57,662 nt of DNA from a virus: positions 1 through 57,662 of IMG/VR virus record IMGVR_UViG_3300032676_000752; one strand, given 5' to 3'. This document shows positions 3,144-47,399 of the stretch, in pieces. The notes beneath the pieces were generated by a model, which saw only the letters and a program-made list of their open reading frames with translations, was not told the DNA's origin and made no database searches. Position numbers and translations under genes: made by a program. Within the stretch, counting starts at the first letter, position 1. Every line of letters begins with the position of its first letter.

Positions 3144-3152
3144 AAAGAACGC

Positions 3153-8772: not shown

Positions 8773-10013
8773 AAGCGACCGTCTTGGTAGGCGACGTGCT
8801 GACACGGCTGGCGCAGTTAGCTGATAACAGTGTCCAGTGCGTGGTGACGAGTCCACCATACTGGGGCCTTCGCGATTATGGCGTGGACGGCCAGCTCGGC
8901 ATGGAGTCCAGCCCATACGAGTACATCGCCAAGCTGGTCGGAATCTTCCATGAAGTTCGCCGCGTTCTGTGTGGGGATGGAACTTTGTGGTGCAACATGG
9001 GCGACTGCTACGCGAGCGGTGACAAGGGCGGATACGCGCGAAACCGTGTCACGGCTTCAGACTCGATGCAAGCATCGAACTTAGGAGATAACTTCATTGG
9101 AGCGCCTAACAGGCAATGGGGCGGCCTTCCACCTAAGAACCTTATCGGGATGCCTTGGCGTTTAGCTTTTGCACTCCAAGCTGACGGTTGGTATCTGCGC
9201 CAGGACATCGTTTGGGCCAAGCCGAACCCGATGCCGGAGAGCGTCACTGACCGATGCACCAAGAGCCATGAGTACCTGTTTCTGCTGACCAAGAGCGCCC
9301 GGTACTACTACGATCAGAATGCCATTCTCGAAAACTGCAGTCCTGCCACGCACGACCGTCTTTCACAGAACGTTCAAGCGCAAATCGGCTCGGAACGCGC
9401 CCATGCGGGGGGGAAAACTAACGGGAACATGAAAGCCGTTGCGCGCCATCTCCCCGGCAATAAAACTCACAAAGGAACCACAGCCTACGAGAACGGCGAC
9501 AAGCGAATGCGGACCAAGGCAGGACTCGTGGACTATGCCGTGCGGGTTCGCAAGCTGGCCGAGGCGGGCAGCGGGACAAAGAACAACGATAGTTTTGATG
9601 CGGCCATGTCGATCATGCCAGAGAAGCGCAACAAGCGATCTGTCTGGACCATCACGACCCAGCCCTATTCCGAAGCCCACTTTGCAACATTCCCCGAGGC
9701 CCTTGTCGAACCCTGCATTCTCGCCGGAAGTAAAGAGGGAGATATGGTACTTGACCCGTTCTGCGGTTCTGGCACGACAGGGGCCGTGGCGCTCAGGTAT
9801 CAGAGAGAGTTTGTGGGCATCGAACTGAACCCGGCATACGCTGAACTGAGTCGCAAGCGCATCGGAGCAGAAGCGCCAATGTTCAACGATGTATCTGTGC
9901 TCGCCCCAGACTCGGCCTACCCATGGTCACCGGCTGGGCCAACTTCGCCGACGCCTGCTCCATCTTCCACCGTGTCACCGCAATCGAGCGCTGATCGACG
10001 CCAGCCGCAATGA
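8769..10013 (+). CDS. DNA methyltransferase (beta class, N4/N6 amino type)
   Basis: 414 aa. The catalytic motif IV TSPPYWG (27-33) comes first and the SAM-binding motif I DPFCGSGTTGAVAL comes near the C-terminus, the permuted beta-class order. The TSPPY form is commonest in N4-cytosine enzymes, although some N6-adenine enzymes share it. It would modify phage DNA against host restriction; no partner nuclease is adjacent. Start GTG 8769 overlaps the previous stop and has GAAAGGAAAGG upstream. The family usually ends soon after the RIGAEAPMF-like helix; here ~37 more Pro/Ser-rich residues run antisense into the 3' end of terL (131-base tail-to-tail overlap), so the true stop may have been lost by mutation or indel. 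Confidence 0.92.
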   Translation: MKATVLVGDVLTRLAQLADNSVQCVVTSPPYWGLRDYGVDGQLGMESSPYEYIAKLVGIFHEVRRVLCGDGTLWCNMGDCYASGDKGGYARNRVTASDSMQASNLGDNFIGAPNRQWGGLPPKNLIGMPWRLAFALQADGWYLRQDIVWAKPNPMPESVTDRCTKSHEYLFLLTKSARYYYDQNAILENCSPATHDRLSQNVQAQIGSERAHAGGKTNGNMKAVARHLPGNKTHKGTTAYENGDKRMRTKAGLVDYAVRVRKLAEAGSGTKNNDSFDAAMSIMPEKRNKRSVWTITTQPYSEAHFATFPEALVEPCILAGSKEGDMVLDPFCGSGTTGAVALRYQREFVGIELNPAYAELSRKRIGAEAPMFNDVSVLAPDSAYPWSPAGPTSPTPAPSSTVSPQSSADRRQPQ

Positions 10014-11430
10014 GTTGCTGGATCTTCTCCTCGGTGGCTACTTGGTCCGGCTTCCTGTCGCCAGTGAGGAACTGGTTCAGTCCATACAAAGTCTCATCGA
10101 GTACGTCGTCTAACTCGTCACCGGGAACCTTCAAAATAGCGCCCGGCCTGTCCGGGTCTGTCTTCCGACTGGTCAAACTCTCGTATGTCTTGGGACAAAG
10201 GTCGGTGACGATGAATTCTCCCCGACTCAACTTGCCGCTGAGTAGTTGCGCATTGCCTACGCTATCCTTTGCGGCCTTGGTCAGCGTAACTCCGTTGTTG
10301 ATCAGAACATCGTTGATAAGGTCGAGGTTACTCTTGCCTGTCCCTGTGTGCGCGTCCATTGCCGGATCCGCATACCCTGAGACAATCCGGCACTGTTGGC
10401 CGCCAGGCCCTACCCGCTGAATGAACTTGCGGGCGATATGGTGCGCGTACTCCTCCGACTTCATCTTGCGCTCAACGTCCTCGGCAATCTTATAGATGCG
10501 CGTGTTCTCGTGCAGGAAGTATAGGCCTGTCGCCGCCGCTGATCCAGAGTAGCCGTAATCCATCGAAATGAAGTGGGTCATCCACCACTGCTCACCGCAC
10601 TCGGAGTACGGCAGGATGTAACTCTCGTTGAGGAACGGGAAGAAGGCGCCCTCTGTGGCACACCAGCACCCAAACAGTAACTTCTTCTGAATATCAGCGG
10701 TCTGCGACATCAGAGCGGCGACTTTCTCCTCGCCGTACAAGGGGTTATCGGACGCCTTGGCAGGAATGAAGCATGTAGTTTTCATTACTGGCGACTCGTC
10801 TTCTTTCCAGCGAGCCCCAGCGTACACAGCTCCAGGAATAACCGATCTTTCAGGATGGCAGAGAGGACATGCATTGTTGAGGAATATAGACATCAGCCAC
10901 GGAGTAGACGGGTTCGCTGTCAATCTGATTCGATTTCTCAACCCATACTCGGGAGGAGTTGCCACCCATGGGAATAGAGACCGAACACGCTTTTCTGTTT
11001 GAAACTGTGCCTCATCGATGCCTAGCCATGAGATAGGCTTTCCAGTGTACAGCTCAACGTCTGAGTCTTTAGCCATGTATCCCAGACGCATTTGTCCACC
11101 GGCAGGGAAACGCCAGAGGCGACCGCCCTCACTCTTCCGTCCTCCGAGGGGCTCATAGATTTTCTTCATCTCATCCATGATGTTTGCCATCTCAGTGAAC
11201 GACTTACGAAGGAGAATACCGCGAAAGTTGGGGTTATCAAATTCTTGAGCGGAATCTCCTACCAAACTCGATGTTTTTCCTCCGCCTGAACTTCCCCCGA
11301 AAAGCGCTAACTGCGCACGGCAGTTGATGAGTGTCATTTGTGGGGGGCAGTTAGGTGCCCATCCAGACACAGCGTGAACGTCTGCGGGAAGGGGTATGAT
11401 ACCTCTATTTTCAAGAAGGGTTAAGGCCAT
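9883..11430 (-). CDS. terL: Terminase large subunit
   Basis: 515 aa. The ATPase has Walker A GGSSGGGKT (45-53) and Walker B WLGIDEAQ (135-142), followed by a motif-III-like LTANPS. The nuclease half has FISMDYGYSG (RNase H-like first Asp), GYADPAMD (second Asp) and DDVLDETLYGL near the end. It pumps DNA into the prohead through the portal and cuts concatemers. It is the last gene of the leftward late block and overlaps the homing endonuclease upstream by 20 bases. The 3' end overlaps the opposing methyltransferase gene. Terminase last is the T7-like order. Confidence 0.95.
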   Translation of the reverse strand: MALTLLENRGIIPLPADVHAVSGWAPNCPPQMTLINCRAQLALFGGSSGGGKTSSLVGDSAQEFDNPNFRGILLRKSFTEMANIMDEMKKIYEPLGGRKSEGGRLWRFPAGGQMRLGYMAKDSDVELYTGKPISWLGIDEAQFQTEKRVRSLFPWVATPPEYGLRNRIRLTANPSTPWLMSIFLNNACPLCHPERSVIPGAVYAGARWKEDESPVMKTTCFIPAKASDNPLYGEEKVAALMSQTADIQKKLLFGCWCATEGAFFPFLNESYILPYSECGEQWWMTHFISMDYGYSGSAAATGLYFLHENTRIYKIAEDVERKMKSEEYAHHIARKFIQRVGPGGQQCRIVSGYADPAMDAHTGTGKSNLDLINDVLINNGVTLTKAAKDSVGNAQLLSGKLSRGEFIVTDLCPKTYESLTSRKTDPDRPGAILKVPGDELDDVLDETLYGLNQFLTGDRKPDQVATEEKIQQLIAAGVDQRSIAVTRWKMEQASAKLAQPVTMGRPSLGRAQIHR

Positions 11431-13256: not shown

Positions 13257-13381
13257 CAGTGCCGCTCTCGATTGAAAATGTCGGAGATGGACACGCCCAC
13301 GGCTGGGATGAGTGCTTTCAGGAGTAGCGCAACGATCACGATGAAGATCAGAGCAGCGAGGTTCAGAGCGAGCGTAATCAT
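13256..13381 (-). CDS. Single-pass small membrane protein (41 aa)
   Basis: Nearly the whole first 28 residues are hydrophobic (ITLALNLAALIFIVIVALLL), followed by a short polar tail ending NRERH. The start is ATGA-coupled to the 669-aa gene upstream and the stop is coupled to the next gene. It could be a holin- or antiholin-like peptide, or help anchor an ejected protein, but no family was recognised. Confidence 0.6.
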   Translation of the reverse strand: MITLALNLAALIFIVIVALLLKALIPAVGVSISDIFNRERH

Positions 13382-28421: not shown

Positions 28422-29726
28422 CTAATTTGAAAAGCTGGTCTGAATGGACAAGCCATAGATAACGCCGCTCGTCCAGTTATTACGCGAGGCGTAGTTTACG
28501 GCGTCGTAGAGCCAGGCATCCTTGTAGCTCGACGTGTTGTTGCCGCTCGGCCGCTGGAACCAGATGCCCTCGATCTGACCGGGGACAAACTGGGGCGCAT
28601 CATTGAAGCGGCAGCGGATCATACTGGAGCGATCCATGAAGTAGAGTTTGTCGATGGCCGCCACGGTGTCCAGAAGCCACTCGACGCCGGCAATCATCTC
28701 CATGGTGAACGTGTCGGGCACGCCGTCAAACTTGGGAGCCTTGCCGGTCGGCATGGTCACTTGCTGGATGGCAAATCCCAACTGGTTCCACGATGCCCTT
28801 TGCGCGTTGTGTCCGTACCAAAAGTTCTTGGGCCGGTCGCGATTATAGGTCGTGTTGCCCATGGCCTGCTGCATCCGGGTCAGGAACGTCTCGACGATAC
28901 CCAGGGTGAGCAGGGAGTTGGCATTGTAGGCCGGGCTCTGGACGTAGGAGAGGCTACGGTCCATCCCCAGATACTCGCCGGTCGTGTTCGGGCTGACGAT
29001 GTACTGGATGCCGTTGAAGAACAGCGGGGATCCAGACGCCACGTTGTTGACCATCACGTAATCGCCGGCGACCACGCCAGGGGGCACATTGTCAACAGTG
29101 ATCTGGTTGCCAGTGCCGATGCCGTTCTTGGGAGCATCGACCACAACAGCCGCGCCGCGGAGAGTGTAGTTTCCGTCGCCCGACATGAACTGAACGGTGT
29201 CCTGAATGTCGATCAGGCGGGAACCGAAGGGCGAGGATGCCAGAGCGATGGGGTTGGCGCCTCCGCCGGCGTAGGTGGCCGAGACGGTTGCGATCTGGCC
29301 GGTGTTGAATCCCTGAAGCGACTGATTCCGCTTCTTGGGCATCTTGGTGTGAGCGTCGGCCACGAGCTTGTCGACGGGGTTGACGGCGATAACTGTCTTG
29401 CCGGAATTGCCGATGCGCTTCTGGAGATCGGTGCAGGTGATGGCGAGCAGGATTTCGACGGGGGTCATAATCCCCTCGTTGTAGGCCCCGCCAGTGCCGG
29501 TCGGGTAGTTGCCGCCATCGGTCGAGCCGGCGCCGAAGCTGCCACCGTACTCGTACTGCAGCATGACGCGGAATTCCTGGAGGCTGGTGATGGTCTGCGG
29601 GCCCATGGTCGAGAACCGGCGGTCAAGCTCCGACTCCATGTTCTCAATGACTTCCTTGGGGGGCGTGTAGGTCTGCAGCATGATGACGGAATCAGCAGAT
29701 GCGGTGGTGAAATTAGGTGCGGGCAT
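28422..29726 (-). CDS. Major capsid protein candidate
   Basis: 434 aa. Helical start with SELDRRFSTMGPQTITSLQEF, an insertion rich in Gly/Thr (residues 60-80), a spine-helix-like segment (VETFLTRMQQAMGNTTYNR), and a beta-rich end (KLYFMDRSSMIRCRF, GIWFQRPSGNNTSSYKDAW). The size, absence of signal or enzyme motifs, strong AAGGAG ribosome site, and position just after the scaffold gene support the capsid assignment with an HK97-type fold. No direct family match can be claimed from sequence reading alone. Confidence 0.75.
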   Translation of the reverse strand: MPAPNFTTASADSVIMLQTYTPPKEVIENMESELDRRFSTMGPQTITSLQEFRVMLQYEYGGSFGAGSTDGGNYPTGTGGAYNEGIMTPVEILLAITCTDLQKRIGNSGKTVIAVNPVDKLVADAHTKMPKKRNQSLQGFNTGQIATVSATYAGGGANPIALASSPFGSRLIDIQDTVQFMSGDGNYTLRGAAVVVDAPKNGIGTGNQITVDNVPPGVVAGDYVMVNNVASGSPLFFNGIQYIVSPNTTGEYLGMDRSLSYVQSPAYNANSLLTLGIVETFLTRMQQAMGNTTYNRDRPKNFWYGHNAQRASWNQLGFAIQQVTMPTGKAPKFDGVPDTFTMEMIAGVEWLLDTVAAIDKLYFMDRSSMIRCRFNDAPQFVPGQIEGIWFQRPSGNNTSSYKDAWLYDAVNYASRNNWTSGVIYGLSIQTSFSN

Positions 29727-29864: not shown

Positions 29865-30389
29865 TTACTGAATCACTAAGGTTTTCGAATCGATCGTCCC
29901 GTCGGCGGAAGCGGATGATACGCCGATATTTGGTACGTCTGGATCGTTCTTACCCTTACGAACAGCCAACTCTTCTCGAACCGCTTGTGAGGCTAGGCCT
30001 CTATTCTTTCCGTTATCTTCCAGGTTGTTGACTTCTAACCACACTCGCATGAGCTGCATGAACAAACGCTCTGGTTTGACCCGGCGAGGCTTCGGTTGGG
30101 CGACATCTATGCGCTCGGCAAACAACGGCAAATTCTGATCCTCGATCAATACTTCCAGATCAGGACCATTAAAATGGAACCATTCCCCGTTAAGTCTCTG
30201 CGCGGCGTATCGCTTATGCAGGTAGGTTTCCAGTTCCACGCAGTTTACGGTTTTCCAGACAGCAAAAATCTCCAACTCAAAAGGGAGCAAGATTCCTAAT
30301 TCCCTCACGCGAACGCGCGGACTCAAGGCTCTTCCTATCTTGTACCAACTATGCCTTTTAGAGCCAATCAAGTAAACGAACCCGCGCAT
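29865..30389 (-). CDS. T5orf172/GIY-YIG-type endonuclease
   Basis: 174 aa. Residues 4-70 have the T5orf172 / MUG113 form of the GIY-YIG fold: VYLIGS (5-10), YKIG (16-19), an arginine-rich helix (SPRVRVREL), the glutamate helix ELETYLHKRY and GEWFHF. The C-terminal ~100 residues are unrelated. Single GIY-YIG proteins between phage structural genes are usually free-standing homing endonucleases. Here it sits between scaffold and capsid genes, preceded by a structured spacer. GAGGAA precedes ATG 30389. It is more A/T-rich than its neighbours, consistent with insertion. Confidence 0.82.
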   Translation of the reverse strand: MRGFVYLIGSKRHSWYKIGRALSPRVRVRELGILLPFELEIFAVWKTVNCVELETYLHKRYAAQRLNGEWFHFNGPDLEVLIEDQNLPLFAERIDVAQPKPRRVKPERLFMQLMRVWLEVNNLEDNGKNRGLASQAVREELAVRKGKNDPDVPNIGVSSASADGTIDSKTLVIQ

Positions 30390-32836: not shown

Positions 32837-35422
32837 TTATGCTGAAATGAACTTTGAGACCTTATCAACCAACTCTTTTGCCGCCTGTACGGGTGCTCCA
32901 CTGAGTTTAGGTGTCGTGATCGGGACTGCGGCTTGCTGCCGAAGGTTGGCGAGTGCGGCCATGGCATCATCAAGTGCTGCGGCTTCAAGTTGCTGCACGG
33001 TCGGATTGGGTTGTGGCGGAGGCGGCGCACCTGCCCGGCCAATCTCGCCTTTGAGTTTTTCCTTATAGCTGGCAACCTGTGCCTCGTAATCGAGCGCCAG
33101 CCTCTTGAACGCGATGATATTCTGCCAGCCGAGCGGATTCTGCTGCTTGACGTCGCAGTTCTCAGCGCAGAACTGGTCGATTGTCGGGAGCAGAATGGTG
33201 TAATCCTCAACCCACTTGTTCGGAGCGATCGACGGATTGAACATGGGCGTCCCGTCGTCGGGGTCGGTCATCTGCATCCCGTTGGGGCCAATCTTCGGTG
33301 TAGGGGGCGTCTGGAGCAGCCGGCGGATGTCCTGAAGCGTCTTTGAACGCTGTGCGGCGCCAGGGGCAACCGAGCCCGGCAGACCCCAGTAATCGTTGAG
33401 GAGTTGCTGGTTAGCTGTCTCGTCAAGCCAGGCCAGGGCTGCCGGGTTCTGCTTCTCGGCCATCTCCATGATGGTCTCGCACCATTGCCGCTTTTGCTCG
33501 GGCGTCATTGGCAGGCCTTCGTCAGTGTTGGCCTTCACCCTCACCCGTCCCTGCATCTCGTCAAGGTGGACGTAGTTGTTGCGGAACTCGCTGCCGTTCT
33601 CCTCAATTACCTGCCAAAGTGAGCCAGTGTACTTCATGTTGACCTGAAGGCACTCAATGGCGTTCTGGCCGGCGGCGGCATGTTCATCCTTGATCGAATC
33701 GTAGATGTCGCCCAGCGGTCCCATGGCCTGATCGAGCATCTGCTTCTGACCCTTGCCGGTCTCGACGCCGGGTGTGGTCCCGGTACCGGATACCTGGGGC
33801 GGTATGCCGGAGATGATCTGGCAGTAGTTCCAGAGCCGGTCGAGGTAGTTCATCAGGCCGGGGTCCATCTGGAACTGGAAGTGGTAGATTGCATTCGACA
33901 GAGGCTGGGTGACTCCCTCGCCGATTGACGGGGTTGGATTGAGCACTCCGCCAGTCAGCGGCTTGCCGCTCATCTCCCGAATGTCGATGCGCCTGGGGTC
34001 AACCAGCGTGATGCCAGTCGAGCAGCGCTCCATGTAGTCGTCGAGGATGTTGTTGATGGCATTGAACCGCTCGTTGAACGGAACTACGTTGTCGGCCACG
34101 CTCGGCGGATATAGGCCGTAACCGTGGTGAAGTTTGCAGGCCGACCACTCTTTGATCAGCACGGCCGGCTCGATGTTGAGGATCACCGGGCCCCACATGC
34201 TCAACTTTAGACCGTAGGGGAATAGCTGCTGCAACTTCTGGACAAAAGGCTTGTCCGCAGCGATGCGGTAGTAGGAATTTGGCTGGACCCAGACGAGCGA
34301 GTACGTCCCGCGCGCCGCGAAGATGTCGGCCGTGACCGAGAACGAGGACGAGAATACCATCGTCCGGACCAGCCGCTCATAACTTGCGTTGTCGTTTGTC
34401 GCGCTCTCGACCCCCTCGGTTATCTCATCGGCCATGTCAGGGAAGGTTGCGCGAATGTCCGAGGCGTCAACTTCCCACTCAAGCGCCAGAAGCGGAACAT
34501 CGGCGAGAAACTCTTTGGTTGGATCGGTGTCGACCTGGAGCGGAGAATAGATAGACCACTTCGGCAGCCCGTTCGGCTTCTTCTTCGTCCCGGTCTGGCC
34601 AATGACCGAGGATGTCTCGCCAGGTTGGAAGTCTTGGGGGCTGAGCTGCGCACCGCAGTGCACGCAGTTCATGCCGCCAGATTGGGCCATCTCCGTTTCA
34701 GAGGAGTCTTGCCCGCAGGTGGTGCAATGGAAATGGTCGTCAGAGATTTTGGCATCGACGTCGCCATACTGCGGAACGTCCTTATAGCCTACCCATGTCC
34801 CATCGATGACGAACCGAGTCCACTTGAAGTAGACACCGTAGAGGAATAGGTATTGGGATTCCAGTCCGAGCAAGCCCTTGACCGCATTCGCCTCTTCGAT
34901 GATCGAGATTGCTTCCTGGGCAGCCTTGGCGGTCGTCATGTCGGCCAGGTTCTCAGCGTTCTCAGGACGAACAACGACGGGGGGCACGGCGCGCGCCACG
35001 GCCGCGGCAAAGTTGCGCCGGCAGGTCTGAGTGATGTTGTTGACATACTTCTCGAGGTAGCTGTAATCGGACTCCTGATTGTTCTGGCGATACCAGGCGA
35101 CCGCATCAAAGTAAGTCCGGCTGATCGGATCCCATCCAAGAATCTGCTTGCCCTTGTCGTACTCGGTGCTCTTGAGCCAGTTCGGCATCTTCATGATGCG
35201 GTCGGTTGCCCACTGGGTCCGGAATGGCTGAATGATCTCGCCGACGATGCGCTGACCCTCCTCCTTGGTCAGTCCACACATGCGCTCGAGCTGCTCAGAG
35301 TCGCCGCGGAGAGGGTTCTGTGGGTTGTGCTCGACGTTGGGCGAGGGTTGCGGTTGCTGCTGCCCTTGATCTGGCGGCATCGCGCCGGATTGCATGGTCA
35401 GAACTGGAGGACTAGCCGCCAT
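32837..35422 (-). CDS. Portal protein with inserted zinc ribbon
   Basis: 861 aa, at the large end for podovirus-type portals. Supporting features are a Gln/Pro-rich start, the segment FDAVAWYRQNNQESDYSYLE, a long helical middle (INNILDDYMERCSTGITLVD; YLDRLWNYCQIISGIPPQVS), and the helical DQAMGPLGDIYDSIKDEHAA. These resemble the wing and stem of large portals. Residues 231-258 contain C233-x2-C236 and C253-x2-C256, a zinc ribbon not usual in this family. The portal is the dodecameric DNA channel on which the head is built. The Ala-rich C-terminus (ALANLRQQAAVPITTPKLSG) may be the barrel. Confidence 0.78.
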   Translation of the reverse strand: MAASPPVLTMQSGAMPPDQGQQQPQPSPNVEHNPQNPLRGDSEQLERMCGLTKEEGQRIVGEIIQPFRTQWATDRIMKMPNWLKSTEYDKGKQILGWDPISRTYFDAVAWYRQNNQESDYSYLEKYVNNITQTCRRNFAAAVARAVPPVVVRPENAENLADMTTAKAAQEAISIIEEANAVKGLLGLESQYLFLYGVYFKWTRFVIDGTWVGYKDVPQYGDVDAKISDDHFHCTTCGQDSSETEMAQSGGMNCVHCGAQLSPQDFQPGETSSVIGQTGTKKKPNGLPKWSIYSPLQVDTDPTKEFLADVPLLALEWEVDASDIRATFPDMADEITEGVESATNDNASYERLVRTMVFSSSFSVTADIFAARGTYSLVWVQPNSYYRIAADKPFVQKLQQLFPYGLKLSMWGPVILNIEPAVLIKEWSACKLHHGYGLYPPSVADNVVPFNERFNAINNILDDYMERCSTGITLVDPRRIDIREMSGKPLTGGVLNPTPSIGEGVTQPLSNAIYHFQFQMDPGLMNYLDRLWNYCQIISGIPPQVSGTGTTPGVETGKGQKQMLDQAMGPLGDIYDSIKDEHAAAGQNAIECLQVNMKYTGSLWQVIEENGSEFRNNYVHLDEMQGRVRVKANTDEGLPMTPEQKRQWCETIMEMAEKQNPAALAWLDETANQQLLNDYWGLPGSVAPGAAQRSKTLQDIRRLLQTPPTPKIGPNGMQMTDPDDGTPMFNPSIAPNKWVEDYTILLPTIDQFCAENCDVKQQNPLGWQNIIAFKRLALDYEAQVASYKEKLKGEIGRAGAPPPPQPNPTVQQLEAAALDDAMAALANLRQQAAVPITTPKLSGAPVQAAKELVDKVSKFISA

Positions 35423-37185: not shown

Positions 37186-37428
37186 TTACTGCTTGGTTGC
37201 GTTTGGGTTAGTGCCCGGCGCGGGACGGTATAGATGCACCAGGGCGGCGATTGCAGCGGTCAGGGCATAGCCGGTCAGCTTGTTCAGACCAGCGCGCGTC
37301 CAGTCGATCTTTCCGGATGCAAGCTCATCTTGAATCGCTGAGACCACCGCACCCACGGCAGCACTGGAAGTGGTGACGAAAATAGGGTTGCTCTTAATCG
37401 AGGCCCACAGTTGTTTGAGGAATTGCAT
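37186..37428 (-). CDS. Holin-like small membrane protein
   Basis: 80 aa with two hydrophobic stretches, FVTTSSAAVGAVVSAI (residues 17-32) and GYALTAAIAALVHLY (53-67), separated by a polar loop and followed by a short Pro/Asn-rich tail. Size and topology suit a class II holin, the inner-membrane pore that triggers lysis. No endolysin was recognised anywhere nearby, so the assignment rests on topology alone. Confidence 0.5.
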   Translation of the reverse strand: MQFLKQLWASIKSNPIFVTTSSAAVGAVVSAIQDELASGKIDWTRAGLNKLTGYALTAAIAALVHLYRPAPGTNPNATKQ

Positions 37429-38166: not shown

Positions 38167-38247
38167 TTAATTACCTGTCCCCCATCCCGGCCAGAGGCGC
38201 CGGAGGCTGAGCCCTGCTGCAAGAATCAGTGCAAGTGCGAGGGTCAT
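38167..38247 (-). CDS. Tiny membrane peptide (26 aa)
   Basis: Begins MTLALALILAAGLSLRRLWP: a hydrophobic segment then arginines. Its ATG overlaps the preceding stop (ATGA) with AGGTG upstream. Supported only by coupling and composition; possibly a lysis-regulating peptide. The 80 bases downstream (38087-38166) hold no gene I can support. Confidence 0.4.
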   Translation of the reverse strand: MTLALALILAAGLSLRRLWPGWGTGN

Positions 38248-38516
38248 GGAAACACCTGATAAGTCACGGTGTAGGTTGCACAACAGGACGGCACTGCGGC
38301 AGAGTGTATCCATGTGATGCCTGTCTTCGTGACCGTAGGTGCACTCCATGTCGTATCTGCTCCCGCATACTGCGTCATCACCAACGGCGCTGACGTAAAT
38401 GGAACAGCGAACGTGTAGGAAATTGTGTTGCCTGAGGCCGAGCCACCAACACTGGAGAGCGAGATGATGCCCCGCGAATCGTTCGGTCTTTCGCCGCGCT
38501 GCCTACGGCCGCACAA
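38244..38516 (-). CDS. Small beta-rich protein, possible fibre tip
   Basis: 90 aa. Residues 25-90 read as beta strands (GNTISYTFAVPFTSAPLVMT, TWIHSAAVPSCCATYTVTY), resembling the C-terminal domains of tail fibres in which TFxxPFxSAP is common. It starts 14 bases inside the 3' end of the 1204-aa fibre gene, in another frame, so it could be a detached tip or chaperone for that fibre. If the overlap hides a frameshift, the two might be one protein. Confidence 0.55.
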   Translation of the reverse strand: MCGRRQRGERPNDSRGIISLSSVGGSASGNTISYTFAVPFTSAPLVMTQYAGADTTWSAPTVTKTGITWIHSAAVPSCCATYTVTYQVFP

Positions 38517-41500
38517 TCACGCCGATATTCACGTTCACATTTCCTCCAGTTATCGCATTAATGTTCGCAACAGTGGAGATGAAATTAAGCTGAACCACGC
38601 CGTTTGACGACGCAAAAGTCGGTGGAGATGCAATCGTGGTACCCGTGGCCATCAGATTCGTTGGCGCGAGATATTGTGTTGCCGTCCCCGTACTGTCGCC
38701 GATACTCATCGTCAGCGTCGTAGGCCCTGTATAAGCTGTGGTGACGTTGACACTCAGCGAACAAACCTGCCAGCCGGGAAAGAGCTGAAGTACGGGAAGA
38801 GTCAGCGTCGTGGCTGGAGTTCCCACTCCCGCCACAGCAGGGACTTGCCAAGGAATCTGCTTTTTGATGAGCGTGCAGGTGTTCAATGCGCCCTGTGCGG
38901 CAAGCATCGAAACATTGTCCTGTGTAGAGAGTTCCTGATAGAGTGCTGGCCCCTCATGCGTCCCATCGACGTACCAGTTCCCATTTGTGACCCATGTCGC
39001 TGTTCCCGTAGTCACTCCAGGATTCGAGGCCACTGGAAAGACCACTGTGCTCCCTGTGCAACTGGTCAGAGTTTTGTTGCCGTTTACCTGACTTGCAGCG
39101 CCAGCGAACAGCAAGACAGACCCCGCGTAGCACTCATAACTAGGTAACGGACTCGATAAAGTGCACGTCTCGTTGGGGCTGGAATAAGAGCATGAACTTA
39201 CAGAGATCGCGGATTGATTGGGCAGATAAGCAGTCGGAGCCGTCTGCGTGGCTGCAATCGGGTCGGTGGCAATGTCATCCACGCCCTGATAGTTCAGCGT
39301 TCCCGCGATTGCGCCAGCGACGACTAGAGCGTTTGTACCCTGCCTGATTGTTTCCCTTGCACTGGTCATCTGACCAAAAGGGAGCGCCGTCGCGTATACC
39401 TTCGTCATATTCGGCACTTGGCCGTAGTGGGTGCTATCCGCCGATGCCTGAATTGTTGCGAAGCAGGCTGCGGCGCTTGTGCAAATCCCCTGGTAGATGT
39501 CGTTGATGATAGCGTCCAGGTGCAGGATTTGGAAATTATTTGTTTCCGTCAGCATCGTACCCAGGCCGCCTAACTGCCCGTTGATTAGTGATAGTTCTGT
39601 TCCCGACAAGCCAATGGCCTGATATGCAGACAGCGCGGAGTTGACCTTTGCGACATAGTACCCACGCGACGTATTCAGTGCGAACGACGACCCGAAATTA
39701 ACGCTCCTGGAATCACCCTGATACCAAACCTTCGTAGCCTGTGGGGGCTTGGCGAAGGTCACTCCGTTGTAGGCTTGAATCTGCTGAGTTGCATACGATA
39801 ACGCTTGCTCTACCTGAGCTTGAGTTAAAGTCTGCGTAAAGCCAATAAGAGCTTGCAGCGATCCGGCAAACCCGGATGATCCGGCTATCCCCGCATTGTG
39901 GCCAATGTAGGTATTCCCGCTTCCGCAGTACAGGGAAAAGCTGTTACTTTGATAAACCGTGCTGGTCTGGTTGACCCCATATATGTAGTCGTTTCCCGCT
40001 GTCGTGAACCCAAAGGCGATGTTCCCGTACATCAGATCTGTCGGCGCATTTTGAGAGTGAGCGCCTGACGCTGGAAAAACCCCGCCATACGAGTTCTGAA
40101 TCATGATCCCGTTCGATCCAGGGTCCGCAAGCAGCCATTGAGTACCGTTCGCATCTACCGGATTGGGCGAGGCTGGTGTAAAAAGCGCAATAACCGTGTT
40201 TACTCCACAGGTGGCCGCAGCCGGTATGGTTATCCACCCCTCATAAGTGTAGGACGGGGCGAAGACAAATCCATCCCCGTTGTTGAAATGCGAGGGCTTG
40301 TGAAATCCATCCGTCGCGCCAGTCGTTCCGTTGTAGCCGTTGCCGCTGGAGTCAATAAGTGTGACAAGCGGGTACGCAAGAGGCGTATTCGGCGCAAGGT
40401 ACGCAAAGTGGGGTTGGTACGGCCATCCCGATGCAACCCCGGAGTCAATAGCATTGCCGCTGGCATCGAACTTCAAAAGGTCGTTAACCGTGGCCGTTCC
40501 GGTAGAATGCTGCACCAAAGTCCCGTTACCTTGATTCGCATTCATGGCGGTACCAGCGTTGACTTGCAATGCGCCGTCTGCTTCAGTGCCCGGCACATTC
40601 AAGTTGTTTCCCGTCGCGTCCGTGGTGATGTTCGTACCTTGAGCAACCGCACCCGCAGAAGATGGGCCGCTAAGTATCTTGTAGCCACTCGTTGAATTAA
40701 TTGTCCCGCTACCCGTCGCCGCCGTGTGCCACGCGCCATCAGCCCCGCAATACTGCGTAGACGTGCCGCCGGGGGCGCAAGTGACTGCCTGACTGGTTGC
40801 GCTGCTCGTGGAGGTTATCGGGGTACTGCCGTTAATTGCCAATGAAGAAACAGCTGCTTTGCCGCTACCGTCATCAAGAGTGTTATGGGTAGTTGTCACC
40901 TTGCCACTGTCGAATACGATTAAAGGGGTATTTGTCCCCGCAGCATTAAACACTTGAAGATCATAGAAGGCGCCCGCACCACCCTGTACGCCCACACCGT
41001 TAGCCGAAGAACCTTGCAGACCAGACCCCAAGGAAACGACAATAGGCCCGGACATGGTGCCGCCCGCAAGCGGAAGGAAAGCTCCCGTGCTCCCTCCTAC
41101 CGAATTCCAAGTGTAGCTCCCGCTTACGTTGCTGCATTGGTACAGAGTCAACGCAGCACTCGTGTAAAACGTGCCATTGTTTACCAACGAGGAGCACGTT
41201 GCCGAGGGAGCGTTCGATCCTGTTGACCACCCAGCCGCGCCCAGGTTCGCTAGTGCTCCTGCGGCGGTGGTCGCGCCGGTGCCACCCGCCGTCACCGGGA
41301 CGCTCGTTTCTCCACTTATCGCTGTACCGTTGGTTAAGTAGTAGGCAATCTGTCCGGTTGTGCCAGGGTTGATGGGGCCGGTGGTGCATGGAGTAGTGAT
41401 TGTAGTCAGCAAACCGCCGGCCCCCGCCTGCACGCAATCGCCAGATGTCAGAGCCGAATCAACGACATTTGCCGATGCGATGGTCCCAGTGCAGGTGATG

Positions 41501-42117
41501 CTCCCCACTCCCACAGACGTACATCCGGCAAAGGACAGCGAGGAGGCGACGTAAGCCGAGCCGTTCCAGAGGTAAGGCACAATCACCGATGATCGCCAGT
41601 CAAAAATGGGTACGTTTGTACTTCCCATGGCTGACGTAATCATGGCTGTTGTACCGCCCAGCCGCGTCCAGTCCGGCGTCAGAATCACCTGGTAGGGCAG
41701 GCCGTGCGCGTAGTTTATCGCCTCTTGCAATCCAGCGGTTGCCGAGCCGAGGGTGAAGCTGGAGTGATGGTTGACCGGACTGACCGTGATTGAGCATCCC
41801 GACCCGCTTACCCTGACCGCCGAGGGAGTCACGATCTCGCTATTGGCTGAAACCTGATCCCTGATGTAGATTGGCGTGCCAACGGCGAAAACTGGATTCA
41901 GAGGAATATTCGAGGCTGTCACGGTGCAGAATGATGGAACAGACCAAGCGAATTGACCAGTATTTCCCTGGGGCACCTGCCACTGGCCGAAGTTAGACGC
42001 ATAAAGCAGGCCTGCGTCATTGCCAGGGCCAGTCGTTACGGTGCCGGGACTCTGAGCGCAGATCAACTGTCCTGCGCTCAAGATCATCGTCGAAAGCAAA
42101 GTAGAGAGTCTTTTCAT
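38503..42117 (-). CDS. Exported tail-fibre-like protein with LamG and SGNH-hydrolase domains
   Basis: 1204 aa. Residues 1-21 look like a Sec signal peptide (MKRLSTLLSTMILSAGQLIC, then AQ). Residues ~35-175 form a domain shared with two neighbours (GLLYASNFGQW, NSEIVTPSA, NHHSSFTLGS, TAGLQEA). Residues 274-295 hold the tail-fibre motif PVTAGGTGATTAAGALANLG. Residues ~575-785 look like a LamG/concanavalin sugar-binding domain. Residues ~795-1065 look like an SGNH esterase: GDS (801-803), N872 in INDI, and D1051-x2-H1054 in VDGTHEGP. It would bind and de-esterify surface polysaccharide. A cleavable signal on a cytoplasmically assembled fibre is unexpected. AAGGGA precedes ATG 42117. Confidence 0.75.
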   Translation of the reverse strand: MKRLSTLLSTMILSAGQLICAQSPGTVTTGPGNDAGLLYASNFGQWQVPQGNTGQFAWSVPSFCTVTASNIPLNPVFAVGTPIYIRDQVSANSEIVTPSAVRVSGSGCSITVSPVNHHSSFTLGSATAGLQEAINYAHGLPYQVILTPDWTRLGGTTAMITSAMGSTNVPIFDWRSSVIVPYLWNGSAYVASSLSFAGCTSVGVGSITCTGTIASANVVDSALTSGDCVQAGAGGLLTTITTPCTTGPINPGTTGQIAYYLTNGTAISGETSVPVTAGGTGATTAAGALANLGAAGWSTGSNAPSATCSSLVNNGTFYTSAALTLYQCSNVSGSYTWNSVGGSTGAFLPLAGGTMSGPIVVSLGSGLQGSSANGVGVQGGAGAFYDLQVFNAAGTNTPLIVFDSGKVTTTHNTLDDGSGKAAVSSLAINGSTPITSTSSATSQAVTCAPGGTSTQYCGADGAWHTAATGSGTINSTSGYKILSGPSSAGAVAQGTNITTDATGNNLNVPGTEADGALQVNAGTAMNANQGNGTLVQHSTGTATVNDLLKFDASGNAIDSGVASGWPYQPHFAYLAPNTPLAYPLVTLIDSSGNGYNGTTGATDGFHKPSHFNNGDGFVFAPSYTYEGWITIPAAATCGVNTVIALFTPASPNPVDANGTQWLLADPGSNGIMIQNSYGGVFPASGAHSQNAPTDLMYGNIAFGFTTAGNDYIYGVNQTSTVYQSNSFSLYCGSGNTYIGHNAGIAGSSGFAGSLQALIGFTQTLTQAQVEQALSYATQQIQAYNGVTFAKPPQATKVWYQGDSRSVNFGSSFALNTSRGYYVAKVNSALSAYQAIGLSGTELSLINGQLGGLGTMLTETNNFQILHLDAIINDIYQGICTSAAACFATIQASADSTHYGQVPNMTKVYATALPFGQMTSARETIRQGTNALVVAGAIAGTLNYQGVDDIATDPIAATQTAPTAYLPNQSAISVSSCSYSSPNETCTLSSPLPSYECYAGSVLLFAGAASQVNGNKTLTSCTGSTVVFPVASNPGVTTGTATWVTNGNWYVDGTHEGPALYQELSTQDNVSMLAAQGALNTCTLIKKQIPWQVPAVAGVGTPATTLTLPVLQLFPGWQVCSLSVNVTTAYTGPTTLTMSIGDSTGTATQYLAPTNLMATGTTIASPPTFASSNGVVQLNFISTVANINAITGGNVNVNIGVIVRP

Positions 42118-42124
42118 CGGTCCC

Positions 42125-43093
42125 TTAATTGACTATTAAGTACGAAAAGCAGCGAGGGTTTGTGGTTGGGGTCGTCGTGGTGATGGTGAAGCTGGTTGCC
42201 GCGGTGCGCGCGCTGACGGTCGAGGGTGCACTTGCCGGGGTCGCGTTGCATGTCACACTCAGAGCCGTCCCAAGAGATGAATCCTCCTGCAGCACGATCA
42301 CGCTGTTAGCTGTTACCGCTGTCGTATTGACCACAACCGTTGTGCCTGAAGCCGCCACAACAACGAATCCAGCTGGTGCCGCGGCGCAAACCGCTGGAGA
42401 TGCCGACGACGCGCACTTGGTAGCCGACGTGAGGCTGGTAAACGTGGCCGCGCCGAGGGTTGGAGTTACGAGAGTTGGGCTGGTTGCCAGAACCTGCTTG
42501 CCACTTCCAGTTGCATTTGACGCTGGCGTGGTTCCGGTGTAGGCAATCGCGGTCGAATTGCGCTGATCGAGAATGGTGGTATTCGTCCCGGCCGTCGCTG
42601 CGGTAATCATCCCGCTAGTGCCGCCCATGGCAACCCAGTCCGGAGTTACCACAACGACTCCATATCCTGAGCCGATCCAGTTCAGTGCCTCCTGGAGCCC
42701 CAGAGTCCCACTTTTCAGGTAGTAATTCGAATGCGCATGGGTCGCCGGGAGGGAGACAGAGCAGCCGCCGCCGTTGTAGCTTGCCAGGCTGGGCGTTACG
42801 GTCTCGGTATTCGACGGCACGCCATTATCAACGATGGTAATGGGCGCCGTGGTTGAGAACATCGGGAAGACGATGCCGCCAGAAGTGGCATAACACTGAC
42901 CTGGATTGTCCCACCGTGTGCCACTTGGGGTTGGTGAGGCAGTCCAATGGGCAAAGTTTGAGGCGTAGAGCAGTCCGGCGACATCGGCGGGACCGTTGGC
43001 CGGCTGCATCACGGTTGCTGTTGGGTTGGTGGTTTGGGCAGCGAGCGCCAATGGCAATGCCAGAAACGCTGCGAGCAAAGCTGATCTTTTCAT
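42125..43093 (-). CDS. Exported paralogue of the fibre N-terminal domain (322 aa)
   Basis: 322 aa from ATG 43093, chosen because AAGGAG lies upstream and a clean signal peptide begins there (MKRSALLAAFLALPLALAAQ). Residues ~35-170 match the neighbouring 1204-aa protein: GLLYASNFAHW, NTETVTPS, GGCSVSLP, SGTLGLQEALNW, TPDWVAMGGTSGMIT, ILDQR. The C-terminal half is Thr/Ala/Ser-rich beta sequence ending NPRCFSYLIVN. It ends 8 bases before the fibre gene. Probably a second surface or fibre component. Confidence 0.68.
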   Translation of the reverse strand: MKRSALLAAFLALPLALAAQTTNPTATVMQPANGPADVAGLLYASNFAHWTASPTPSGTRWDNPGQCYATSGGIVFPMFSTTAPITIVDNGVPSNTETVTPSLASYNGGGCSVSLPATHAHSNYYLKSGTLGLQEALNWIGSGYGVVVVTPDWVAMGGTSGMITAATAGTNTTILDQRNSTAIAYTGTTPASNATGSGKQVLATSPTLVTPTLGAATFTSLTSATKCASSASPAVCAAAPAGFVVVAASGTTVVVNTTAVTANSVIVLQEDSSLGTALSVTCNATPASAPSTVSARTAATSFTITTTTPTTNPRCFSYLIVN

Positions 43094-43193
43094 GGCAATG
43101 ATGCTCCTTTTGAAATCGAATCGAGCGGGCCGCGGGCTCAAGTGCCCTCAGTAATCAATGGGCGGCACGGTTGCGCAGCCCGCGCGAAGTCGG

Positions 43194-44147
43194 TTACTTG
43201 CAGGTCCAGGTGAAATAATACTGAGTGGCCGCAACCTGGGGCGCTGTTGCCTCGGCCACAGTCATGATGCGCTGGAATGTGGTGCCTGAGCCGGTGTCGC
43301 TCATGGTCACAGTGAACGTGGTGTACGGGTTGGTTCCGCTCGACTTGACTGTGCAGGTGCCATCGTACTGCGGGCCGCCCGCGCTCACCGCCGGCCATGT
43401 CTCGGTAAAGATGGTCCCGGTTGTTGGCGATGTGCCTGTCAGCACATTCGCAGTCCCGACGATTCCGGTTGCTCCGTTGACATTCGAGCAGGTCGGGCTG
43501 CCGCCGGCTGCCGCTCCACACGCCATGGTCGGCGCCGTGTTCTTCAAATTTGCGTTGGTTGCGGTGTAGGCACTCCCAGACCACACATAGAATGTGGCCG
43601 GCGATGTCGTGATGTCCTCGAGCAGTACGGTGTAGTCGCCCTTAGCCGCCCCGAGGATCGCTGTCGCATAGGTACTCGGGATGTTATTGGCCAGCGACCA
43701 CCAGTTTTTGTCGAGGATCAGCAGAGTTGGCCAGGCGCCCTGTCCATCGAGAGCGTCAATGCCCTCCTGGAGCCCCGCGGTGCCAGATCTCAACTGGAAG
43801 TTGTAGTGATTGTTGCTCGGCGCGATGGTCACACCGCAACTGCCGGCCGTGTTGACGATGGCTGATGGCGTCTTGACCTCACTGTTCGCCGTGTTGGCGT
43901 CTGCAATCCACACCGGGGCGTTGGTGTTGAAGTCAAAGAACGGCACATTCTGGCCCTGGGAACTGCAAAGACTGCGGCCCTGGAAGATGTACGTATTAGG
44001 ACTTTGGGCGTTGATTGACCAGAGCTGGAAGCTGGTGGCCAAGTACCAGGGTGACGTGTAGGGGGTGGTGGCAGTTTGCGCAAAGCTCATCCCGCACGGG
44101 GCGAGGACTGCAAGCGCGCAGAGAAGGGCACGGAAGATTTTGCGCAT
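43194..44147 (-). CDS. Exported paralogue of the fibre N-terminal domain (317 aa)
   Basis: 317 aa. Signal peptide MRKIFRALLCALAVLAPCGM then SFAQ. The shared domain is recognisable but diverged: LATSFQLW, NSEVKTPSAIV, CGVTIAPSNNHYNF and RSGTAGLQEGIDAL. The C-terminal half (residues ~205-317) is beta-rich and ends QVAATQYYFTWTCK. AAGGAG precedes ATG 44147. It is one of four consecutive signal-bearing genes. Confidence 0.66.
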   Translation of the reverse strand: MRKIFRALLCALAVLAPCGMSFAQTATTPYTSPWYLATSFQLWSINAQSPNTYIFQGRSLCSSQGQNVPFFDFNTNAPVWIADANTANSEVKTPSAIVNTAGSCGVTIAPSNNHYNFQLRSGTAGLQEGIDALDGQGAWPTLLILDKNWWSLANNIPSTYATAILGAAKGDYTVLLEDITTSPATFYVWSGSAYTATNANLKNTAPTMACGAAAGGSPTCSNVNGATGIVGTANVLTGTSPTTGTIFTETWPAVSAGGPQYDGTCTVKSSGTNPYTTFTVTMSDTGSGTTFQRIMTVAEATAPQVAATQYYFTWTCK

Positions 44148-44183
44148 GGCGATGTGACTCCTTTAGGTTGTGAAGAGTTGAGG

Positions 44184-45770
44184 TTATTGGATGGCGATGC
44201 AGGTCACCGAGGGAACGGTATAACCGCGCCCCGCAGATAATCCCGACATTTCAACGCCGTAGCTAAAAGTGGTGCCACTTATCGGAGTTCCGAATGCGGT
44301 TACTCCGGCCCGTTGACCGATGGTTGATCCGCTCGGGAAACCGGTCGTGAAACAGTTGACGTAGTAGGTTCCTGTGATCGTGGTTCCCCAACTGATAGCC
44401 CCGCTCAGATAGCCCGATCCAGATTCGCTGTCGTCTACCATGACGCCCGATGCACCGTTCCAAAGAGCAACGGTCTTGCGCGGCGCCACGGTTCCGGCGG
44501 TGCAGCTCGTGATTCGGCCATAGGCGTCGTAAACAACGCTGGATGGGTTAGCGCATGTTGCAGGAGTGACCGTGGTGGCCAGATCTACCGTGCTCCGGGA
44601 TGGACTTGCAGAGTCTGTAAGCGCAAACGCGCTCGAGAAGTTGAGATTGGAGCGCTGTGTTTGGTTGGTGCCGTTCGATTGCACCGTCTGGTAGTAGATC
44701 GTCGGGAGTGATGTCAGGAACGTGCAGAAAGCATCAAGATATGTCCCATCGGAGCACAAGGCCTGGCCGAGCGTGCCGCCTGAGCCATTGACCCGATAGC
44801 CGGTATTGGCATTCACAGCCCCATTCGCCGCGGCACCCTCGACATCTAGTCCCCATGCCGGCGTCGATGTGCCCACTCCGACCCTGCCAGTATTGTAGAG
44901 GAAGTATCCGGACAGGTTGAGCCCACCCGAGATCGACTGCGTGCCATGGTTGGCGGGCTGCGACAGGACTGGCACCGGATAGAAAACGACGCCGTGGTAG
45001 TACGGCAGCCCATCCGAGAGGTTGATCGTGGTCCCGGCGCCCAATAACTGCCATTGCATTGGATAGTTGGGCACTGGATTGCCGCGGGAGTCGGTCAGGT
45101 TGACGTTGTATCCGGTGCCGGTGGGCCAGATGGTGTCATTGGCGATGACTTGGCAGAGTGTGGTGTTGGTCGACGCGGGGGATGCGCCGGAAGTCAGGGC
45201 CGCGGCTTGGACGAATGACGCTGAGCCGGTTGTTTGGCCCTGGAGCGTCTCTCCACCGGAGGAGGTGCCGATGAATACGTCCATGCCTATGGCAAGTGAT
45301 GGCATCCCGGATGCTGGAGGGTTGACCACGAGGGATCCTGACCCGCTGAGCGATGCGATGGTCTCAGGACTGGCCAGCGTAACGTGGCCGGCGGCGTCAT
45401 ACCACTCGTATACGGTGTAGTAGACGCCCGATCCGAGCGATCCTGAGCCCGTTGATGTGTTGATTGTCGCTGTCAGAGGATTGGGCAGACCTACAACAGA
45501 GCCATCGGTCGAGGTTGCGCATGCGCTCGAGATGCCGAGGTTGACACCGCAGCCCGCAATATAGCCCTGCTGGGTCGGCGTCAGCGTCATGTTGTAGTTC
45601 TTGGCGGGCAGGCCGTTCGATAATCTGAGGTTGCCGGCCAGTGTGACCTGCGCATTGGTTACGCAGGTCTGGCAATGTCCAATGCTGGAGAGCAGGAGCA
45701 CAAGCAGTGCGAGGATTAGAGCGCTGACGACTACCTGTGCGTCCCACACCCAACTGCGGTAGCGGATCAC
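44184..45770 (-). CDS. Signal-anchored tail-fibre-like protein (528 aa)
   Basis: 528 aa from GTG 45770, which overlaps the previous stop (GTGA). Residues ~12-33 are a long hydrophobic signal or anchor (VVVSALILALLVLLLSSIGH, then CQ). The rest is beta-rich with fibre signatures: GRVGVGTSTPAWGLDVEG (residues ~295-312), AYGRITSCTAG, then a C-terminal GXX-like beta domain ending VPSVTCIAIQ. It is not clearly homologous to the three shorter-signal neighbours but is in the same operon. A structural fibre or exported adhesin. Confidence 0.66.
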   Translation of the reverse strand: MIRYRSWVWDAQVVVSALILALLVLLLSSIGHCQTCVTNAQVTLAGNLRLSNGLPAKNYNMTLTPTQQGYIAGCGVNLGISSACATSTDGSVVGLPNPLTATINTSTGSGSLGSGVYYTVYEWYDAAGHVTLASPETIASLSGSGSLVVNPPASGMPSLAIGMDVFIGTSSGGETLQGQTTGSASFVQAAALTSGASPASTNTTLCQVIANDTIWPTGTGYNVNLTDSRGNPVPNYPMQWQLLGAGTTINLSDGLPYYHGVVFYPVPVLSQPANHGTQSISGGLNLSGYFLYNTGRVGVGTSTPAWGLDVEGAAANGAVNANTGYRVNGSGGTLGQALCSDGTYLDAFCTFLTSLPTIYYQTVQSNGTNQTQRSNLNFSSAFALTDSASPSRSTVDLATTVTPATCANPSSVVYDAYGRITSCTAGTVAPRKTVALWNGASGVMVDDSESGSGYLSGAISWGTTITGTYYVNCFTTGFPSGSTIGQRAGVTAFGTPISGTTFSYGVEMSGLSAGRGYTVPSVTCIAIQ

Positions 45771-46129
45771 TGGACTGGTCCACCAGCTGCGGGGCCGCCT
45801 ACCATCGCCAGCTTGGGTTTGTTGGCCGCGGCAATCTCAGCCTGCTCCGCCTCGAGCTTGGCGTTAGCCTCAGCCGCGGCCGCCTCACGCCTGATCTGCT
45901 CCTGGTGCTGGTACTCGGAGATCGCGTTCTTGGTCTCATCCTGCCGCAGCTGGAATTCAGTTTGAAGCATGTTGAGCACTGAGCCGTGGACCTGGATTGA
46001 CAGCGCGCGCAGCCGCTTGCCAATGGCCAGATACTCGGCCTGGAGGTTGGAGATCGACGTTGCAACCGGCTCGTTGGCGATTGCCGCGACCTTCTCTTGC
46101 AGGGTTTCTGCTTGGTTCTTGCTGTTCAT
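45767..46129 (-). CDS. Coiled-coil protein (120 aa)
   Basis: 120 aa. Residues ~5-105 are one long charged, Ala-rich coiled coil (RREAAAAEANAKLEAEQAEI), with a short Gly/Pro tail. No membrane segment. It is coupled at both ends by ATGA/GTGA overlaps. It could be a fibre chaperone or an assembly factor for the exported proteins downstream; no family recognised. Confidence 0.58.
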   Translation of the reverse strand: MNSKNQAETLQEKVAAIANEPVATSISNLQAEYLAIGKRLRALSIQVHGSVLNMLQTEFQLRQDETKNAISEYQHQEQIRREAAAAEANAKLEAEQAEIAAANKPKLAMVGGPAAGGPVQ

Positions 46130-46620
46130 ACTGCTTTGTCCTTTCGTTTGTACGTTAGATGTGCACCACCTGGCCCACGTCCATTAGGTTTGCAGTCGAG
46201 GTTGCAGGCTGGCCCATACTCGTAATGCCAGTGTCGCACCGTCCCCAACTGTTTGAGCCGATACTCGTGCGCCTCCGGTCCCAACAACAGCCGACCGCAC
46301 ACCGCGCAGTGCCGATACTCAACCGGGTACATCGTGCCGGCCCCACCCATCGCCTGATCGTGCTCGACCAGGGCTCGTGCACGCCGCCGGCTGCGTATCC
46401 AGAACTCTCGGCTGGTTGCCGTCAGTGTCGCCGACCGCTCGCACCTGCCGAGCTCCTCGGGGTCAATCTCGGTCGCCGTCAGCGTCACAAACCACATTCG
46501 CCTCGCCACCTGGACCGCCCGATACCCCCGCATCCTGCCCAGCCGGATCCGCCGATTGCGCCGGTAGAGCCTCGGCTCGCGGTCTGGCTCATCCCATCGC
46601 GGGTAGTCTTTGAGATTCAT
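46126..46620 (-). CDS. Arg-rich zinc-binding protein (164 aa)
   Basis: 164 aa, very basic at the start (EPRLYRRNRRIRLGRMRGYR). A likely zinc finger lies at residues ~104-143: CAVCGRLLLGPEAHEYRL followed by H and ACNLDC. Between them, residues 40-90 are a mixed domain. The composition suggests nucleic-acid binding. It is the second or third gene of the leftward transcript, so it may regulate late expression. Confidence 0.55.
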   Translation of the reverse strand: MNLKDYPRWDEPDREPRLYRRNRRIRLGRMRGYRAVQVARRMWFVTLTATEIDPEELGRCERSATLTATSREFWIRSRRRARALVEHDQAMGGAGTMYPVEYRHCAVCGRLLLGPEAHEYRLKQLGTVRHWHYEYGPACNLDCKPNGRGPGGAHLTYKRKDKAV

Positions 46621-47042: not shown

Positions 47043-47399
47043 TCAAACTAATTGCATGGTTCTCATGGCTGATTTACCCCCCGGCCCGCTCGGCATCCCA
47101 CGCCAAACCCTGCCATACGAGTACGTCGCCACATTGCGGCCAGTCCCGATGTACTCCAGCACCCCATCGCGCACCAGCACGTCGACAGCCTCGCGCGTCT
47201 GGTGCTCATGTGTACACCTGGGACCATGGCACGGCTGGTCAACTCCCCACCTGTCCAGCATGGCGCCTGCCCAGCTCGACAGCACGCACACCCGCCGGCG
47301 CTCCTTGCTCTTGGGCGCCACTGGCTTATACCTGAACACACGGCCGCGCACCTCGGTCTTGACCGCTTTGCCTGTCTGAGTTGTCTGGATTGTCGCCAT
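47043..47399 (-). CDS. Winged-helix-like regulator candidate
   Basis: 118 aa. Residues ~65-110 look like a small winged helix (HQTREAVDVLVRDGVLEYIG followed by a basic beta hairpin, RNVATYSYGRVWRG), preceded by a basic region (RYKPVAPKSKERRR). The opposite strand is also open here, but this strand fits better: it is the first leftward gene after the divergent control region and has AGGA before ATG 47399. A transcriptional regulator of the late block is a reasonable guess. Confidence 0.5.
   Translation of the reverse strand: MATIQTTQTGKAVKTEVRGRVFRYKPVAPKSKERRRVCVLSSWAGAMLDRWGVDQPCHGPRCTHEHQTREAVDVLVRDGVLEYIGTGRNVATYSYGRVWRGMPSGPGGKSAMRTMQLV

Follow-up and report, generated by a model that had tools for sequence, protein, structure and literature searches.

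To our knowledge, the described fibres of tailed phages are synthesized in the cytoplasm without Sec signals, and the whole assembly of tailed phages is assumed to take place in that compartment. A cluster of four consecutive late genes in the IMG/VR virus record IMGVR_UViG_3300032676_000752 (all 57,662 nucleotides were analysed and are called the window here) raises the question of why a phage would export fibre-like proteins, and where such proteins would act. The cluster lies on the minus strand at 45770–38503, upstream of a portal-like gene and within the late virion/lysis block. A sequence-only reading of the window had proposed that the products of the four genes begin with Sec signals or anchors, that three of them have an N-terminal domain in common, and that export is puzzling for fibres. 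The signals and the common domain were confirmed in the analysis below, and export gained strong support from the pairing and even number of cysteines in the exported proteins.

Export signals and cysteine pairs

All four open reading frames (ORFs) were present, and each product opened with basic residues and a hydrophobic core, followed by a small-residue site ahead of Q (Table 1). Signals were called throughout by a heuristic, namely a simple n/h/c-region rule (positive n-region, hydrophobic core, small residues at −3/−1). In the products of genes 2–4, a domain of ~170 amino acids (aa) followed directly after the signal; a profile built partly from the window's own sequences matched the three copies with E values of 6e-72 to 7e-79, and the domains of the 317-aa and 1204-aa proteins were 33% identical (tblastn E 1e-17). 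Gene 1 lacks this domain, yet it is signal-bearing, and its relatives were found in about 30 loci. For gene 3, the ATG at 43093, which is preceded by AAAAGGAG, was taken as the start in preference to a longer TTG-start ORF from 43141.

In a first set of untruncated domain genes, 64 of 68 were flagged as signal-bearing, and by these heuristic calls the features of Sec export and signal peptidase I cleavage fell at a consistent site, nearly always directly before the domain. The same rule flagged 2/70 TerL, 0/69 portal and 0/38 major capsid protein (MCP) sequences (2/177 overall), as well as 15% of composition-shuffled N-termini, and thus the signals were above chance. They were retained in members about 25% identical. 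Neighbours within the clusters also bore signals: one phage encodes as many as seven exported proteins, which range up to ~1,870 aa in length.

The wider family comprised 142 untruncated members, about 98 signal-bearing and 44 signal-less, two of the labels having been corrected by hand (L119 to unexported; L027, 601 aa, to signal-bearing by eye). A positioned cysteine pair, defined after inspection of the data as either a hairpin C-x5-20-C or the window-type pair C61/C104, was present in 94/94 non-identical signal-bearing members and in 0/36 unexported ones. The non-positional figure, which is the fairer one, was similar in direction: any two cysteines within the domain were found in 98/99 members with a signal versus 13/43 without. 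The hairpin reads SAVSNSTPLVYGSSTLSATF in the unexported form and SAVSCSTPLVYQSCSFTASF in the exported form. In full-length homologues of ~510 aa, the arm contained 4–10 cysteines, always an even number and paired at matched positions, if a signal was present, and 0–4 if it was not.

The parity of the cysteine count gave a second indication. Complete mature proteins of exported members had an even count in 86 of 88 cases, with up to 36 cysteines in one protein, whereas parity was at chance among unexported members (19/34), TerL (27/65), portal (31/60) and MCP (15/31). The window's 1204-aa protein was one of the two odd-count exceptions and has 20 cysteines once cut at LICA^Q. The mature products of genes 1–4 contain 10, 6, 6 and 20 cysteines, respectively, the ten of gene 1 lying beyond its predicted cleavage site. 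Family members are related, so p-values for parity and pairing are overstated; the pattern recurs over independent switches of the signal.

Since paired, even cysteines of the mature part track the signal across these switches, export into an oxidising compartment is very likely to be real. It could be argued, every signal call being heuristic, that the N-terminal hydrophobic segments are unused or uncleaved and that the proteins never leave the cytoplasm, where they would fold and assemble as ordinary tail fibres do. We regard this as highly improbable: pairing and even parity confined to signal-bearing members have no easy explanation unless the proteins reach an oxidising compartment, and the signals persist at low identity under a rule with a low false-flag rate. 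The even-cysteine test also provides a simple sequence-only check of true export for any phage protein family.

Signal-bearing and signal-less forms of the domain gene

The order TerL, domain gene, portal was observed in 59 loci, 30 with a signal and 29 without, the contigs of the loci being fragments. The domain gene thus has the conserved position among late virion genes that characterizes fibres and receptor-binding proteins. Unexported members begin MALSRFSG..., and no more than 10 residues separate the preceding stop from the domain; misannotated starts were rejected as an explanation, since so few residues leave no room for a signal. Two signal-bearing members (L050 and L052) and two signal-less members (L042 and L051) were 50–56% identical across the domain. 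One locus, L106, contains unexported and exported copies of the gene side by side (2869–3774, 3711–4769), and the exported copy has the cysteine pair.

A quick tree of ~180 columns, made without the cysteine columns, indicated that the signal changed 8 times, at least four of them on well-supported branches. Signal and cysteine pair co-varied on this tree, with 8 changes each and concordance in 4/4 independent pairs. The export route as a switchable property of one fibre family appears to be the best explanation of these sequence patterns. Because the same-locus gene exists both exported and unexported, its function has to be possible from either compartment, and so at or after lysis, and the matched fibres at the same site constitute a natural experiment on assembly location. 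Phages whose domain gene is unexported nevertheless have a further signal-bearing product, encoded ahead of the terminase (656–1894 in L042 and 3685–5505 in L069); that of L042 is a GDSL esterase (Pfam E 7e-8), part of which is carbohydrate-binding-like.

The shared domain, present in ~140 genes of metagenomic viruses, had no counterpart in Pfam, PHROGs, INPHARED or PDB. The four cluster proteins yielded nothing usable in Pfam and PHROG scans, tblastn detected no relative of the domain, of gene 1 or of three divergent members in 50,697 phage genomes, and a profile search of PDB sequences was likewise negative. Profile-guided scans of IMG/VR yielded 40 loci, and later 80. Scanning of 84,980 species genomes gave five domain matches, all in Acidobacteriota metagenome-assembled genomes. 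Among 396 sampled Acidobacteriota genomes, a single one had the domain, within a prophage in its chromosome. A host surface domain was rejected as its identity on the same figures.

In this prophage (L048; contig G021:C36, 112 kb), the domain lies near portal and MCP homologues, and the outer parts of the contig contain LigA, AsnS, Rho, IF-2 and GalT. Because host genes flank the phage part of an Acidobacteriota contig, we identified L048 as a prophage and its host as diderm. The family is a soil phage group of which at least one member infects Acidobacteriota, and the host is diderm as judged from that member. These results point to disulfide-stabilised phage adhesins in abundant, little-cultured soil bacteria. 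L048 is a possible source of inducible phage; it also has a signal-bearing 1306-aa gene immediately after the MCP-like gene.

The host bears on the four roles suggested beforehand for the exported proteins. The best fits were attachment to virions outside the cytoplasm and action at lysis, given the signal-less gene at the same locus in sister phages; surface decoration and a superinfection block fitted less well. In the latter case, the proteins would be displayed on or retained in the envelope of the infected cell and would occupy or modify receptors. Export signals are present, and known superinfection-exclusion proteins are exported. An example is lambda Lom, a small exported outer-membrane barrel encoded between tail-tip and tail-fibre genes (PMC12309495). 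The window's proteins resemble Lom in being exported and differ from it in size and build: they are large beta proteins of several domains, one of them conserved and docking-like. We consider a superinfection block improbable. The four signals have no lipobox, and the proteins, at 317–1204 aa, show no barrel or visible anchor; in a diderm host, Sec alone stops in the periplasm; the genes lie in the late block; and unexported same-locus orthologues could not act in this way before lysis.

Fibre-like architecture and a possible route to the virion

Support for the fibre-like character claimed for the cluster comes from features of the proteins and not from a database assignment. The 1204-aa protein carries the repeats GGTGATTAAGALANLGA and LPLAGGTMSGPI, the tip of the gene 3 product weakly matches K1-lyase_C, and the architecture is modular. 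Along the 1204-aa protein, coverage dropped from about 90 loci for the N-terminal domain to 1–5 for the last 400 aa (the C-terminal third), which argues for a constant base with exchanged tips.

AlphaFold2 predicted a beta-rich fold for the mature 317-aa protein (predicted local distance difference test 90). Foldseek of this model found no match at E<=1e-3 in PDB, and found two uncultured-phage proteins in BFVD. The 507-aa model of the ~510-aa arm has a C-terminal beta sandwich with legume-lectin-like Foldseek matches (probability 0.9–0.98, TM-score about 0.3), and this lends weak support to a lectin-like sandwich; a birnavirus capsid likeness of the same model was dismissed, its E<=1e-3 being accompanied by TM-scores of about 0.15. 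By eye, gene 4 encodes a LamG-like stretch and a GDSR/IND/DGTH pattern; its SGNH part had no Pfam or PDB match, and the enzyme reading is one made by eye.

Among known systems, the closest architecture is that of the mosaic adhesive trimer (MAT) fibres of Bdellovibrio, which consist of a signal, a conserved beta-rich domain (~130 aa) and a variable phage-fibre-like shaft and tip (PMC10769870). The window's proteins likewise have the signal directly before a conserved beta-rich domain, followed by a variable fibre. MATs are bacterial proteins found on the surface of the predator, and 13 of 21 carry a terminal S74 domain (PMC10769870). The window's proteins, in contrast, are encoded by phage genes in late operons, and the comparison is one of architecture, not of N-terminal sequence; no S74 match was found among the scanned proteins. 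They share with tailed-phage fibres and receptor-binding proteins a conserved N-terminus, an exchangeable lectin- or enzyme-like C-terminus, the position of a virion gene and fibre repeats, but all four bear signals and have no PHROG or Pfam fibre-family match.

The coat proteins pIII and pVIII of filamentous phages are Sec precursors that are exported before entering the particle, and these phages assemble at the membrane without lysis. The likeness is confined to the Sec precursors, whereas the window belongs to a double-stranded DNA podovirus-like phage with terminase, portal-like and MCP-like genes. We know of no export of virion proteins in tailed phages. Soil viruses carry auxiliary genes for exported carbohydrate-active or -binding proteins; here, in contrast, the N-terminal domain, portal synteny and unexported orthologues point to a structural, not a metabolic, role.

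We propose, on a balance that we judge to be even, that the cluster encodes receptor- or carbohydrate-binding fibres of a podovirus-like phage, which would be exported, held in the periplasm and docked on virions at lysis. The fibre proteins would be made as Sec precursors, pass into the periplasm of their diderm host, be cut at A/C^Q and fold there with disulfide bonds. The sequence statistics show the presence of signals, the cysteine pairing and the common locus of the two forms; Sec export, cleavage ahead of Q and periplasmic oxidation are strongly supported inferences from them. The fibres should then wait in the periplasm until lysis, because Sec alone ends there in a diderm and the four proteins show no visible route across the outer membrane; in L027 the late block adjoins a lysis gene, a GH108 endolysin gene downstream of the cluster. 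At lysis, virions would meet the fibres, the conserved N-terminal domain would dock the fibre on the particle, and the variable C-terminal lectin- or esterase-like part would bind or trim host polysaccharide. Cytoplasmic synthesis without signal or cysteine pairs, as suggested for the sister phages, would represent an older or alternative route.

Docking on virions is favoured by the fixed position in the packaging/portal block and by the base–tip modularity, and its main rival is free polysaccharide-directed action in the lysate. According to the latter, the proteins would be secreted enzymes or adhesins and not virion parts, first periplasmic and then digesting or capping extracellular polysaccharide and debris, so that progeny escape and do not re-adsorb. 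Such a role would suit the exported cluster partners, which include beta-helix/K1-lyase_C, chitobiase-C/DUF2961 and InlB-repeat proteins, as well as the GDSL esterase of L042, the pattern seen by eye in the 1204-aa protein, clusters with 4–7 exported genes and the GH108 endolysin gene downstream of the cluster in L027. We nevertheless regard it as rather unlikely, since unexported forms are fixed between terminase and portal, as a virion gene would be, and virion receptor-binding proteins typically combine a conserved base with swapped tips.

Several points weigh against docking on virions. Dilution at lysis would have to be offset by a high affinity or local concentration of the fibre, and up to seven exported proteins per cluster go beyond the obvious needs of a podovirus tail. 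No PHROG, Pfam or PDB family names the cluster proteins as tail fibres, the open-access literature searched offered no earlier case of exported fibres being added to a tailed phage, and the four independent pairs on the tree are too few for a sign test to reach 0.05. We advance only tentatively, at slightly below even, the more general proposal that a lineage of tailed double-stranded DNA phages adds Sec-exported, periplasm-oxidised fibres to finished particles at lysis and has switched routes several times with gain or loss of disulfides. If true, it would give tailed phages a second assembly compartment. With matched exported and unexported fibres at one genomic site, extracytoplasmic assembly becomes a directly testable question.

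Features of the window and neighbouring genes

The coordinates of the cluster and its context are given in Table 1. Portal, MCP, holin-like and SGNH are inferred names; a scaffold-like gene was also assigned in the window by homology and gene order.

Table 1 Features of the four-gene cluster and its surroundings in the window.
Feature	Position	Strand	Basis
Gene 1, 528 aa, GTG start: signal and Cys-rich repeat region (FN3-like by eye)	44184..45770	-	ORF list
Gene 1 signal peptide VIRYRSWVWDAQVVVSALILALLVLLLSSIGHC^Q, 33 aa, ends GHC^Q	45672..45770	-	Sequence and heuristic; cleavage inferred
Gene 2, 317 aa: signal, shared domain and ~110-aa C-terminal beta domain	43194..44147	-	ORF, profile, AlphaFold2
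Gene 2 signal peptide MRKIFRALLCALAVLAPCGMSFA^Q	44079..44147	-	Heuristic rule; cleavage inferred
Shared domain copy 1, C61/C104 pair	43554..44078	-	Profile matches; Cys columns
Gene 3, 322 aa: signal, shared domain and tip domain	42125..43093	-	ORF, profile, heuristic
Gene 3 signal peptide MKRSALLAAFLALPLALAA^Q	43037..43093	-	Heuristic; start picked via upstream AAAAGGAG; cleavage inferred
Shared domain copy 2	42506..43018	-	Profile matches
Gene 3 C-terminal region, weak K1-lyase_C likeness (phage polysaccharide-lyase tip domain)	42170..42349	-	Pfam E 8e-4, under curated cut-off
Gene 4, 1204 aa: signal, shared domain, fibre repeats, LamG-like and SGNH-like regions	38503..42117	-	ORF, profile; LamG/SGNH by eye
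Gene 4 signal peptide MKRLSTLLSTMILSAGQLICA^Q	42055..42117	-	Sequence; heuristic picks earlier site within same signal; cleavage inferred
Shared domain copy 3	41539..42054	-	Profile matches
Small membrane protein, holin-like by eye (context), downstream of cluster	37186..37428	-	Sequence
Portal-like protein, 861 aa (context)	32837..35422	-	Homologous to large gene at portal position, TerL-fibre-portal-MCP clade; name inferred (size, gene order)
Major-capsid-like protein, 434 aa (context)	28422..29726	-	Homology and gene order across loci; name inferred
Terminase large subunit (context)	9883..11430	-	PHROG 979 E 1e-27

Some other genes of the minus strand are described here. The product of the ORF at 13378–15387 (669 aa) contains a 2'-5' RNA ligase/phosphoesterase domain (Pfam E 2e-9). 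It also weakly resembles the anti-CBASS protein Acb1 (E 1e-3), has a stretch like RelA_SpoT (E 3e-4) and is possibly a counter-defence or packaged enzyme. An HNH/homing-endonuclease-like ORF (29865–30389) sits between the scaffold-like and MCP-like genes. Directly upstream of the cluster, three small genes (46126–46620, 45767–46129 and 47043–47399) were co-conserved across 8–15 loci, and one of them has a CxxC...C zinc-finger-like pattern; they are possible dedicated regulators or chaperones of the cluster. Finally, a small ORF (38244–38516) overlaps the end of gene 4 and has weak similarity to an H-type lectin and to a tail fibre (PHROG 1396); it may encode a tip protein of its own or continue gene 4 through a frameshift.

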